A stretch of DNA of 32,268 nt, taken from NCBI GenBank assembly GCA_902776945.1, contig CACYSH010000045.1, positions 1-32,268 of the forward strand, in the 5' to 3' direction. Below, piece after piece: positions 1,223 to 30,110 of the stretch. The stretch comes from an uncultured Ruminococcus sp. GTDB taxonomy: Bacteria; Bacillota; Clostridia; Oscillospirales; Ruminococcaceae. The notes under the pieces were generated by a model. It did no database searches, was not told where the DNA came from, and was given only the letters and a program-made list of their open reading frames with translations. Both the position numbers and the translations under genes were made by a program. The stretch's first letter is position 1; each line of letters begins with the position of its first letter.

Positions 1223-1297
1223 AAAGATTCCCCTTTCTTATGTCTCGGTAAAAATATTTGATTTGTAAATATGGTATTAATCGGATTTTCTGTACAG

Positions 1298-1590
1298 TTG
1301 ATTCAAAACCCCACGCTATTACGTCACTTTTTTGTGGTATACATCGGGTATACGTCACATTTTTTGGACAGTTACGGTAAAACACTGCGTTATTATTGGA
1401 TTTTTGCCTGCGGTTGTCATGTATACATCACTTTCCTGTATTTAAACTTTTAAAAAATCAGAATATATATTTTTATAAAGTTTGCGAAAAGTGATGTCTC
1501 GATGTATACCGCGTATAAAACGCTGTAATTACGCGGGGTTTATGATTTACTGTCCGAAAAATGTGACGCATACCGATGTAACCTTCGTAA
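1298..1590 (-). repeat. Diverged structured repeat with GTATAC units
   Basis: This aligns by eye with the repeats at 29566-30110. On the minus strand GGTTACATCGGTATGCG (about 1584-1568) matches GGTTACGTCGGTATGCG at 29865. ACAGTAAAT is followed by TAAACCCCGCGTAATTAC (1542-1525). A CGCAAACTTTATAAAA block comes next, flanked by GTATAC-containing arms. On the plus strand two further relatives of the AAAACCC-ACGCTATTAC core lie at 1305-1322 and 1379-1396. The repeat unit here is GTGA(T/C)GTATAC, different from those of the 29.7-30.1 kb copies. Confidence 0.6.
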
Positions 1591-27991: not shown

Positions 27992-28025
27992 AGTCAACAG
28001 ATGTGATTAATACGGGGTGAATTAT

Positions 28026-29465
28026 ATGTCAAGGTTCTCGGAGCTGCTTAAAGGCTATACCGACCGCAGCGGCGTTTCCGTCGCGGCTCTCTCCAAACGC
28101 TGCGGTATCGACCGAACTACTCTGCATAAGATAATCAGCGGCGAAAGACGACCGCCGAATGAGGATTTCGTCGTGAACCTCTGCCAGATACTCATGCTGT
28201 CGGCGACCGAACGCGACACTTTTCTCGAACAGTACGAGATTTCCCTCGTGGGCGACGACCTCTACCGCAGGCGCAGGAACGTGAAGGCGATGATAGAAAA
28301 GCTCTCCGAAGTCGGCGAAAAGGAATACTCCGCGCTAAAAAGCCCTTTCGCAATAGGCGATCTTCCGAAAAACGGCGTTACAAATCTGTATCTCGAAAAG
28401 CATGAGCTGTTCAGGCGGCTGTACTCGGCTAATGTCGAAGCGTTTGAAAATAAAAGCATAGTAAGGATAATCGCCCAGCCCGATGATGATTTTGTCGATT
28501 TCATGCGTTATGCCTTCGGCTACTACAAGGGCAGCGAGATTCGGCATATCTTCTGTCTTGACAACAGCACGGGTCCCGGCGGCGCAAATGACTATAATTT
28601 AGAGCTTTTTCCCCGCGTCTGCGAGCTTTCGGCGATGTACGGCAATTACCGCCCTATGTTTTATTACGACCGCGTGGAATCGCATATCAACGAATCCTCG
28701 CTGCTGCCCGTGCTGGCGGTCAGCGATAATTTCATGTTCCGTGCGCCGTGCGACGTTCAGTCGGGTATCATAAGCCGCAATCAAATCGCCGTCGATTATT
28801 CCGTAAGCCAGTTTGATAAGCTCGAAAAAAAATGCTACCCGCTTATCGTGCGTGCGGACGATATTTCGGGAATGCTCGGCAACGGCAGAGATTATCACGA
28901 TTATCTGTACACTATCGACGTGCAGCCCAGCTTTATTCTGCTTGCAACCGAAGTCGGCGTGCAGAACAATATGAATCTGTCGCAGGAGCAAAAGAATATA
29001 CTGCTCGAAAGAATGAAGTTTGTGCAGCAGAGGTACGCAGGCAGAGAATATTCCAACATTTTTACGGAAAACGGGCTTATCTATTTTATGAAAACGGGCG
29101 TTATCAGCGAGCTTCCGGAAAGAGTATACAATATCGTGCCGCCCGAAAGAAGGCTCTACGCCCTCAGAAAAATGATAGAGTGCAGCGAGAAGGGCGTTTA
29201 TGATTTCCGGCTTATCGACGGCGACTGCGCTCCGAAGAATAATCTGCGGATAAATATAGGCGAGGAAGGAACTGTGCATTTCGTTATGCGGCTGAGAACG
29301 GGGCTTGTTTTCCTTGCGGTCAGCGAACATAGTATGAGGATAGCCGTTGAGGACTATGTTACCTCGCTTATCGAAAGCGGGAAGATATACAGCCGCGAAC
29401 GCTCGGTCAGCATAATGAAGAGGATTCTCTCCGCCGCCGAAAGGGAGCTTTCGGGCAGTCCTTAA
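28026..29465 (+). CDS. XRE-type helix-turn-helix protein with large C-terminal domain
   Basis: A 479-residue protein. Residues 1-65 form a Cro/C1-type helix-turn-helix (VSVAALSKRCGIDRTTLHKIISGERRPPNEDFVVNLCQIL). The remaining roughly 400 residues are an alpha/beta region I do not recognise. It includes VRIIAQPDDDFVDFMRYAFGYY, IRHIFCLDNSTGPGGAND, and a later IDVQPSFILLATEVGVQNNMNLSQEQ stretch. No membrane segment is seen. ATG 28026 is chosen because GGGGTGA lies just before it; the GTG nine bases earlier would sit on that site. It is probably a DNA-binding regulator with a sensing domain, transcribed alone and divergently from cdd. The targets are unknown. Confidence 0.72.
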   Translation: MSRFSELLKGYTDRSGVSVAALSKRCGIDRTTLHKIISGERRPPNEDFVVNLCQILMLSATERDTFLEQYEISLVGDDLYRRRRNVKAMIEKLSEVGEKEYSALKSPFAIGDLPKNGVTNLYLEKHELFRRLYSANVEAFENKSIVRIIAQPDDDFVDFMRYAFGYYKGSEIRHIFCLDNSTGPGGANDYNLELFPRVCELSAMYGNYRPMFYYDRVESHINESSLLPVLAVSDNFMFRAPCDVQSGIISRNQIAVDYSVSQFDKLEKKCYPLIVRADDISGMLGNGRDYHDYLYTIDVQPSFILLATEVGVQNNMNLSQEQKNILLERMKFVQQRYAGREYSNIFTENGLIYFMKTGVISELPERVYNIVPPERRLYALRKMIECSEKGVYDFRLIDGDCAPKNNLRINIGEEGTVHFVMRLRTGLVFLAVSEHSMRIAVEDYVTSLIESGKIYSRERSVSIMKRILSAAERELSGSP

Positions 29466-29499: not shown

Positions 29500-29528
29500 T
29501 TTACTTATTTATCTTTATTTGATATAAT
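29500..29528 (+). promoter_or_regulatory. Probable promoter of the repeat-bearing moxR leader
   Basis: TTTACT (29500-29505), 17 bases, TATAAT (29523-29528). It would give a leader of about 650 bases carrying the two structured repeats before moxR at 30186. Confidence 0.55.
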
Positions 29529-29592: not shown

Positions 29593-29787
29593 ATGTCGCA
29601 CAAGGGCGATTATTTGGACAGCAAATACAAAATCTTACGCTATTACAGCGAAAAATCAAAAGGTAGACAGGTAGACGGCAGATTTCGTAAACTTTATAAA
29701 ATACTTATCATTCATTTTTGTAAAGTTTATGATTTTTACTGTCTACCTGTCTACCAAAGCCCGCAAACCATTGATTTTCAAGGGTAA
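29593..29787 (+). CDS. Possible small protein overlapping the structured repeat
   Basis: A 64-codon frame beginning MSHKGDYLDSKYKILRYYSEKSKG, with GGAGG (29575-29579) 13 bases upstream. Its second half is encoded by the repeat with inverted arms. In the related sequence at about 1370-1400 (plus strand) a similar LDSYGKTLRYY peptide can be read, and near 29890 a different frame gives EQLNENPTLLLH. The conservation may therefore be of nucleic acid rather than peptide. The spacing of the ribosome site is poor. I list it only as a possibility. Confidence 0.25.
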   Translation: MSHKGDYLDSKYKILRYYSEKSKGRQVDGRFRKLYKILIIHFCKVYDFYCLPVYQSPQTIDFQG

Positions 29788-29833
29788 AACGGTAGACAGT
29801 ACTTTCTGATTCTACTGTCTACCACTGTCTACC
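29662..29833 (+). repeat. Structured repeat copy A, CTGTCTACC units
   Basis: The first stem is a perfect 15-bp inverted repeat, GGTAGACAGGTAGAC (29662-29676) and GTCTACCTGTCTACC (29741-29755). It encloses a second perfect stem TAAACTTTA (29688-29696) / TAAAGTTTA (29721-29729). The second hairpin is a perfect 11-bp stem GGTAGACAGTA (29791-29801) / TACTGTCTACC (29813-29823) with an 11-base loop, followed by one more ACTGTCTACC (29824-29833). Confidence 0.85.
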
Positions 29834-29952
29834 TTGCTTTCGGCAGGGTAATACTCATATCGGCGGTTACGTCGGTATGCGAGAATATATTTGAACAGTT
29901 AAATGAAAACCCTACGCTATTACTACATAATTATTGCTGTATTAAGGTATTA

Positions 29953-30110
29953 GGCAGATTTCGCAAACTATATAAAATACTTATCATTCTTTTTTTTGAA
30001 AGTTTACGATTTTTACCGTATACCCGTATACCAAAGCCCGCAAACCATTGATTTTCAAGGGTAAAACGGTATACGGCACTTTCTGATTTTGCCGTATACC
30101 GCCGTATACA
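29953..30110 (+). repeat. Structured repeat copy B, CCGTATACC units
   Basis: It aligns along its whole length with 29677-29833; for example the 35 bases at 30033-30067 are identical to 29756-29790. The units, however, read CCGTATACC and CGTATACC (30016-30032) and the hairpin is GGTATACGGCA (30068-30078) / TGCCGTATACC (30090-30100), again 11 bp with an 11-base loop, then GCCGTATACA. The left outer arm present in copy A is degenerate here. Confidence 0.85.

Follow-up and report, generated by a model that had tools for sequence, protein, structure and literature searches.

The window analysed here, the whole stretch of 32,268 nucleotides from an uncultured Ruminococcus sp., contains two adjacent repeat elements, A and B, which are flanked by the gene for an HTH protein (28017-29465) and by moxR. 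Element A (29662-29833) is built from seven short units that all contain the word GGTAGAC, at 29662(+), 29670(+), 29741(-), 29749(-), 29791(+), 29817(-) and 29827(-). A forward pair and a reverse pair stand on either side of an AT-rich arm, and after them come a 35-base segment, one forward and one reverse unit, and a trailing reverse unit; the sixth unit pairs with the fifth as an 11-bp hairpin, and the second unit of the first pair reads GTAGACGG. Seven of the nine GGTAGAC occurrences in the 32-kb window fall in A, compared with a mean of 1.5 and a maximum of 4 in the window for 100 shuffles. Element B (29939-30109) follows the same plan with another word, GTATACGG, which is found five times, at 30016(-), 30024(-), 30069(+), 30092(-) and 30102(-); all five occurrences in the window belong to B (shuffles: mean 0.57, maximum 4). 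The features are collected in Table 1, including a third, decayed copy near the start of the window, which scores 32 bits at 1359-1520 (minus strand) with the covariance model described below and the units of which are not above chance in a register-free count. This copy has left blocks in both orientations, like the array C128 of the same genome, and there they look like terminal inverted repeats.

Table 1. Features of the repeat elements in the window (iteron designations are putative)
Feature	Position	Strand	Remarks
Left block, element A	29616-29646	+	GGACAGCAAATACAAAATCTTACGCTATTAC; pattern search, alignment
Iterons 1-2, element A	29662-29676	+	Forward tandem pair, unit GGTAGAC; sequence, word count
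AT-rich arm between the two iteron pairs, element A	29682-29740	+	Alignment; proposed melting region by analogy with PICI origins (available part of PMC6092414)
Iterons 3-4, element A	29741-29755	-	Reverse tandem pair; pairing list, word count
Constant segment, element A	29756-29790	+	Same in B; aligns with AACCATTGATWTTACGGGG of several other copies
Iterons 5-6, element A	29791-29833	+	11-bp hairpin 29791-29801/29813-29823; includes trailing iteron 7 (29827-29833)
Left block, element B	29893-29923	+	GAACAGTTAAATGAAAACCCTACGCTATTAC; left terminus about 29868-29892; pattern search, alignment
Decayed first iteron pair, element B	29939-29954	+	Reads GTATTAAG GTATTAGG
AT-rich arm, element B	29955-30015	+	Sequence, alignment
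Iterons 3-4, element B	30016-30031	-	Unit GTATACGG; word count
Constant segment, element B	30033-30067	+	Equals 29756-29790 of A; sequence
Iterons 5-6 and trailing iteron 7, element B	30067-30109	+	Hairpin 30067-30078/30090-30101; trailing iteron 30102-30109
Third, decayed copy	about 1292-1562	-	Blocks at 1292 (+), 1366 (+) and 1525-1557 (-); units near GTATACATC

The two elements had been noticed in a sequence-only reading as nearly identical outside their short units, and the alignment bears this out, since A and B have the same base in 99 of 105 core columns outside the units and in 46 of 67 inside them, and the 35 bases between the second unit pair and the hairpin are indeed the same. The claim that the units changed in concert holds for the seven GGTAGAC copies of A and the five GTATACGG copies of B; it went too far in stating this for every position, as the first pair of B reads GTATTAAG/GTATTAGG. 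The limits of the elements also had to be extended: the forward pair at 29662-29676 lies ahead of the start originally given for A (29677), and similarity between the two repeats reaches further left, to blocks with a spacing of 277. The likeness of these left blocks between A and B (0.63) is below that of the core, and they end with TTACGCTATTAC in A and CTACGCTATTAC in B. Among third copies, C1 is the closest: it shares 92 of 104 core columns with A and 95 of 105 with B, and its word, GTAGTCGG, is again a different one. Outside the units, the three are 88-94% identical.

About 20 relatives, which use at least a dozen different words, occur in three genomes from a single genus (probably Ruminococcus). 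When 100 genomes were searched at the DNA level, two matched, the own genome (G000) and G010. Across 13 genomes of the genus, the left-block pattern occurred at 13 places in G000, four in G010 and one in G003; on reading, the G003 place and two of those in G010 (C241, C154) had no full array. The same pattern matched two genome contigs, both of the MAG RUG12685, and none of the viral contigs. A covariance model was built from 13 genus arrays (C269 excluded; no vapE helicase in the fetched flanks) and, run on the same 13 genomes, found 16 places in G000, five in G009 and two clear ones in G010 after removal of opposite-strand duplicates; 15 of the 16 places in G000, all except G000:C84, were read. 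Weak matches at G010:C255 and G002:C108 were rejected on reading. With a second block pattern, a further array was recovered at G009:C32, which has a word of its own, GGTAGTAATG, and whose arm contains an insert. Other matches of this pattern, at G009:C18, G000:C205 and G010:C140, were discarded, as no array follows there. The family-wide search with the model, which was insensitive with eight candidates scored per genome, matched at least two of 297 genomes, G000 and G317. Words are common to C29 and G010:C190, to C220 and C269, and to the left half of C76b and G010:C115; C1/C230 and G009:C70/C75 are nearly alike.

Where tested, the arrays sit among ordinary chromosomal genes. They lie between rapZ and whiA (C76), beside the genes for EPSP synthase and 3-dehydroquinate synthase (aroA/aroB-type, C24), the small chain of carbamoyl-phosphate synthase (C147), a Cys/Met enzyme (C1), SpoIIGA (C29), a DUF4430 protein (C220) and UxuA (C132), and, as in A and B, beside moxR. 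At G000:C200 (L134), GTGACA occurs six times between genes for a GH3 glycosidase and an esterase and no left block is seen by eye; this array is an orphan from a different lineage. Several further observations were made on reading. Different arrays in opposite orientation lie, by eye, downstream of apparently the same gene in G000:C220 and G010:C190 (L035 and L047), namely the DUF4430 gene in C220. A left terminus (TATACGTCAC / TATGCGTTAC) precedes GGACAG in many copies, e.g. at about 1440 in L112 and about 5145 in L041; it resembles a GTATAC-type iteron and does not vary with the other units. Further short hairpin repeats (of the GCACGAACT..TTCGTGC type, and CCCCTACAA) are found near several arrays (L041, L036), and repeats on either side of the C1 array are found dozens of times in G010.

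The sequence-only reading had proposed to check whether units agree inside elements while differing between them, and this is what was found. Mean within-array identity was 0.705 in 13 arrays with seven slots, compared to 0.423 (sd 0.012) when the slots were re-dealt (0 of 5000 trials reached the observed value), and 0.712 compared to 0.453 in the 11 arrays left after two near-duplicates were dropped. These values were calculated with fixed columns, hence arrays with slipped register score low, as seen for C128 (0.42), C76a (0.50), C76b (0.51), C147 (0.53) and C24 (0.53). In a register-free count, unit sharing exceeded single-base shuffles (reached in at most 2 of 500) in 19 of 22 arrays. Free disagreement inside elements, which had been named as the refuting outcome, is seen only in part. 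It applies to three of 22 arrays, C147 (53 of 500 shuffles), C76a (441 of 500) and C45a (449 of 500), in which sharing is not above chance. It applies further to C76b (L039) and G009:C13 (L108), where the words of the left pair set differ from those of the right set, as would result from recombination of two origins midway. No control window from the same locus reached the count of the array in 13 of 19 arrays; one window each did so for B (of 311), C128 (of 62), G010:C115 (of 129) and G009:C13 (of 21), and nine of 69 for G010:C190, in a comparison that left out G009:C32 (0 windows counted). Covariation of the units, also a proposed check, is strong: in the two hairpins, 28 of 30 pairs have changed on both sides, with a covariation score of 0.588 and at most 0.204 after sliding.

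Selection on pairing had been offered as one cause of the concerted change, and the elements had been placed in a long leader upstream of moxR. The strong pair covariation and a promoter-like TTTACT-17-TATAAT at 29500 (one of eight such sites in the region, with 2.7 expected) would fit a structured moxR leader RNA, a riboswitch or attenuator in which stem changes are compensatory. However, agreement between slots in 12 arrays was 0.738 for hairpin partners, 0.762 for direct neighbours and 0.742 for the trailing unit with the others, with 0.710 for all non-partners and 0.43-0.47 after shuffling. Agreement among unpaired units is thus close to that of hairpin partners, which favours a DNA-binding protein over RNA pairing. 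Moreover, Rfam gave no match at the gathering score, copies stand beside such unrelated genes as rapZ-whiA, aroA/aroB-type, carbamoyl-phosphate synthase, uxuA and GH3 genes, and G010 has moxR without arrays. The leader or riboswitch reading was rejected on the empty Rfam result and the equal agreement of unpaired slots, and we regard it as very improbable. As far as the sequences tell, the agreement of words follows a common reader rather than base pairing alone.

The other option raised in the sequence-only reading, a copying process that rewrites units together, needs consideration as well. Template switching between inverted units is known as quasipalindrome correction, and together with short gene conversion it might homogenise the units mutationally, with no selection by a protein. 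All units lie within about 170 bp and in both orientations, and the halves of C76b and G009:C13 differ as blocks, as local copying would yield. On the other hand, hairpin partners agree no better than direct neighbours or the trailing unit, and similar arrays with other words recur beside initiator genes in other genera. Homogenisation is unlikely as the main cause; it may still help the change along and could speed it.

A candidate for the common reader is found in the same genome. An array with the unit GGTCGTAA lies in C269 directly 3' of a gene for a 421-residue VapE-domain helicase (PF05272, E 2e-41), which is preceded by a CHC2 primase gene (PF01807, E 9e-19). The 3.2-kb contig starts inside the array, which is cut off in the arm, and its two searched frames show VapE and CHC2 domains only. 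Altogether 19 VapE-type loci were collected, including C269, from family and order searches and one viral contig. Within 300 bp past the vapE stop (116 bp for C269), one 6-mer occurs 4-11 times on both strands at 12 of the 19 loci, counts that single-base shuffles reach in at most 1 of 200; of 353 control windows, 23 reach four copies and two reach five. The weakest of the 12, L066, has four copies and is equalled by at least one of its own control windows. Seven loci (L054, L055, L057, L058, L059, L060 and L064) show no cluster by count; by eye, pairs flank an AT-rich stretch on each side at L055 and L060. The words 3' of vapE mostly differ (GGTTACA, GGTGAACA, GGGGTAGG, GGGGGAAC, GTGCACA, AGGTTGCAAG, CGTAGACGCA and others), and TAGTACATGA is the word at two vapE loci of one genome. 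The model of the 13 genus arrays also finds the vapE-adjacent origins L063 (E 2e-7), L056 (8e-5) and L066 (2e-4), as well as an array with nine copies of GCGGAAC that lies in another genus, within a phage-like region (G317:C235). The latter array is found on the 3' side of a D5-type phage primase fragment, at a distance of about 1 kb; a second phage-family frame lies between the two, and a sigma-like phage regulator beyond.

With the C269 VapE as query, nothing was found in viral or genome contigs, while the L055 VapE gave one locus in viral contigs; a VapE alignment (A1) had no matches in viral contigs, a DNA search of phage records with part of L053 had none, and no VapE match exists beside A and B in the window. 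The occurrence of like arrays with other words directly 3' of initiator helicase genes, together with unit agreement that is independent of pairing, supports the earlier suggestion of a co-evolving recogniser, and on these sequence comparisons the reader of A- and B-type units is likely a VapE/PriRep-type initiator. It is highly improbable that the units instead serve as operators for a regulator encoded in the chromosome and co-evolving with them. The repeated words do lie in the intergenic region behind a gene for an HTH-domain protein, but an equal layout with other words exists at many unrelated loci and beside vapE, and the AT-rich arm is conserved.

The structural model of the VapE protein is compatible with such a role. 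An AlphaFold2 prediction from a 14-sequence alignment (mean pLDDT 84.6) places a strand, helices and a two-strand wing in residues 359-413, which we read in the model as a winged helix at the C-terminal end. The best match among solved structures is 7pds, PriRep1 with double-stranded DNA (E 1.3e-18, TM 0.64), also the sole PDB match of phmmer at E 0.001; we take PriRep1 to be a staphylococcal island protein. Among 13 others, the helicase of L070 is nearest to L069 (193 of 275 columns; L065: 173 of 274), whereas its winged helix is nearest to L065 (34 of 37; L069: 20 of 37), from the same genome, and its iteron is that of L065. In sequence terms, this triad shows a word that follows the winged helix. 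Mantel tests on the 12 VapE loci gave correlations with the iteron of 0.43 for the winged helix (0 of 2000) and 0.41 for the helicase (1 of 2000); both fail without L070 (0.18 with 148 of 2000, and 0.20 with 114 of 2000, respectively), so that the correlation between winged helix and iteron depends on one pair.

The layout has several known counterparts. Iteron words differ between PICI islands. According to the available part of PMC6092414, PICI origins lie 3' of rep and have two iteron sets around an AT-rich region, and the accessible text of PMC7581432 describes that SaPI Rep reads its iterons through the C-terminal domain. Similar to this pri-rep-ori arrangement, two iteron sets flank an AT-rich region in A and B (with the first pair of B decayed), and the predicted C269 VapE combines a PF05272 helicase domain with the modelled winged helix. 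The position of the origin 3' of the initiator gene is found for C269 and not for A and B; the copies described here are mostly without an initiator gene, about 190-240 bp long, and most share the left block. With regard to the further genes of whole islands (int, a divergent repressor, xis and packaging/interference genes), the search for domains on the 3.2-kb C269 contig covers the CHC2 and vapE frames. In the record of phage P4, crr lies directly 3' of alpha and has two 120-bp repeats in which 8-bp type 1 repeats are ordered ++ -- + around an AT-rich stretch, the same arrangement as in units 1-5 of A. In contrast, A has two further reverse units, and both crr repeats use one word whereas A and B use different words. 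The P4 order is found in C269/C220 (the ++ pair of C269 being known from the near-identical C220 only) with the gene beyond the last +, although -- is added before the gene. The P4 word GGTGAACA is used by L053, but BLASTP of the L053 VapE, the only one compared, gave no match to P4 alpha (best E 1.1); on this one comparison, the likeness to P4 would be one of plan rather than membership.

Tandem and inverted iterons near a hairpin that are specific to the cognate Rep are also known from geminiviruses. Those use an HUH nickase and rolling-circle replication, whereas the searched proteins of C269 show VapE and CHC2 domains only. The constant segment (29756-29790; also L063, L148 and others) has a conserved core near TTGATATTACGG, which in some copies lies in a stem AAAACC...GGTTTT, is reversed in orientation in C29/G010:C190 and recurs in the distant vapE origin L063. 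The core presumably resembles the geminivirus loop and is a possible priming or nicking site. Other comparisons are the pRN1 plasmid, with its origin 3' of a primase-helicase that has a C-terminal winged helix (available part of PMC4234260), which differs by a 100-base stem-loop without iterons in that text, and the PLE satellites. As far as the accessible sections of PMC8263062 go, PLE1 differs by three semi-palindromic iterons of about 30 bp bound by RepA, and restructured iterons and exchanged replication modules serve PLEs to escape Odn, a nuclease that mimics the initiator.

In the chromosomes, most copies have little besides the origin: as a rule a conserved left block, and no more than about 53 vapE codons; in G000, one of the 15 places read has an intact vapE (C269). 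The fetched loci other than the VapE loci L052-L070, most with flanks of 1.5-5 kb and with less at contig ends, were searched by tblastn with VapE and CHC2. This detected only the last 20-53 VapE residues, beside C230, C29, C1, G009:C75, C56 and C126, and no helicase or primase segments in orphan loci at E 0.01. Shorter vapE tails were seen by reading at G009:C13, C70 and C32, and no tail was seen in alignments of the remaining orphans. The freshest orphan case is C220, the origin of which is identical to that of C269 at 107 of 108 bases; the similarity ends at the outermost iteron, and C220 has neither vapE nor a left block. Identity is 90% between C29 and G010:C190 and 84% between C76b and G010:C115, while the 1.5-kb flanks of these arrays do not match one another. 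At the C1 locus, G010 has 86 bp where G000 has about 690 bp including the element; at the A/B locus G010 has moxR and a block-like remnant only, and the comparison at G010:C115 was not clean. Since no helicase or primase segment was detected in the fetched orphan loci, captured or transposed origin fragments seem likelier than decay of full copies, and short origin cassettes rather than full replicons may have moved, as judged from draft assemblies and a single outgroup.

These short dispersed copies with a common left end, the alike pairs in unmatched flanks and the left blocks that bracket C45a and C128 in inverted orientation would also be expected from a MITE-like transposon, with the units as transposase sites at its ends. 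However, most copies have one block and C220 has none, no target duplication was seen by eye at C220 (the one copy looked at), and in other genera the array alone stands 3' of vapE. We consider the transposon rather improbable; it may explain the spread, but not the units.

Collectively, it is very probable from the comparisons above that A and B are iteron-type origins that derive from a family of small replicons with a primase and a VapE helicase, be they phages, satellites or integrated plasmids, and that were stranded upstream of moxR without their genes. The layout, the agreement inside elements and the vapE adjacency in C269 and other genomes can be read directly from the sequences; beyond these, we infer that the iterons are bound, that the origins are active and that coevolution of initiator and iterons lies behind the concerted change. 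Each origin would consist of tandem iteron pairs around the AT-rich arm, the conserved 35-base segment, the iteron hairpin and the trailing iteron. The winged helix at the C-terminus of the cognate VapE-type initiator would bind all iterons of one origin, and the protein, loaded as a ring-shaped helicase, would open the AT-rich arm. One protein would read all iterons, so that the set changes together: once the winged helix shifts its specificity in a lineage, the whole iteron set would have to follow, while the sequence in between need not. This type of origin is already known; a limited literature search found no orphan iteron origins in print, and the novelty lies in its dispersed, gene-poor occurrence with many different words.

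More tentatively, and on balance doubtfully, the chromosome might keep gene-free origin cassettes with many words that act in trans, either as minimal parasites copied by any VapE replicon able to read their word or as decoys that titrate initiators. In the latter case, incoming initiators could be titrated and the cell would become incompatible with those replicons. Cassettes with a vapE tail could further be a store of ready-made specificity modules for recombination, because the winged-helix codons adjoin the iterons. The arrays provide closely related natural origins that differ mostly in the iteron word, beside initiators with modular winged helices, and the joint change of an initiator and its six or seven binding sites becomes directly testable. 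If the orphans do act in trans, they would represent a gene-free form of satellite or an immunity against replicons.
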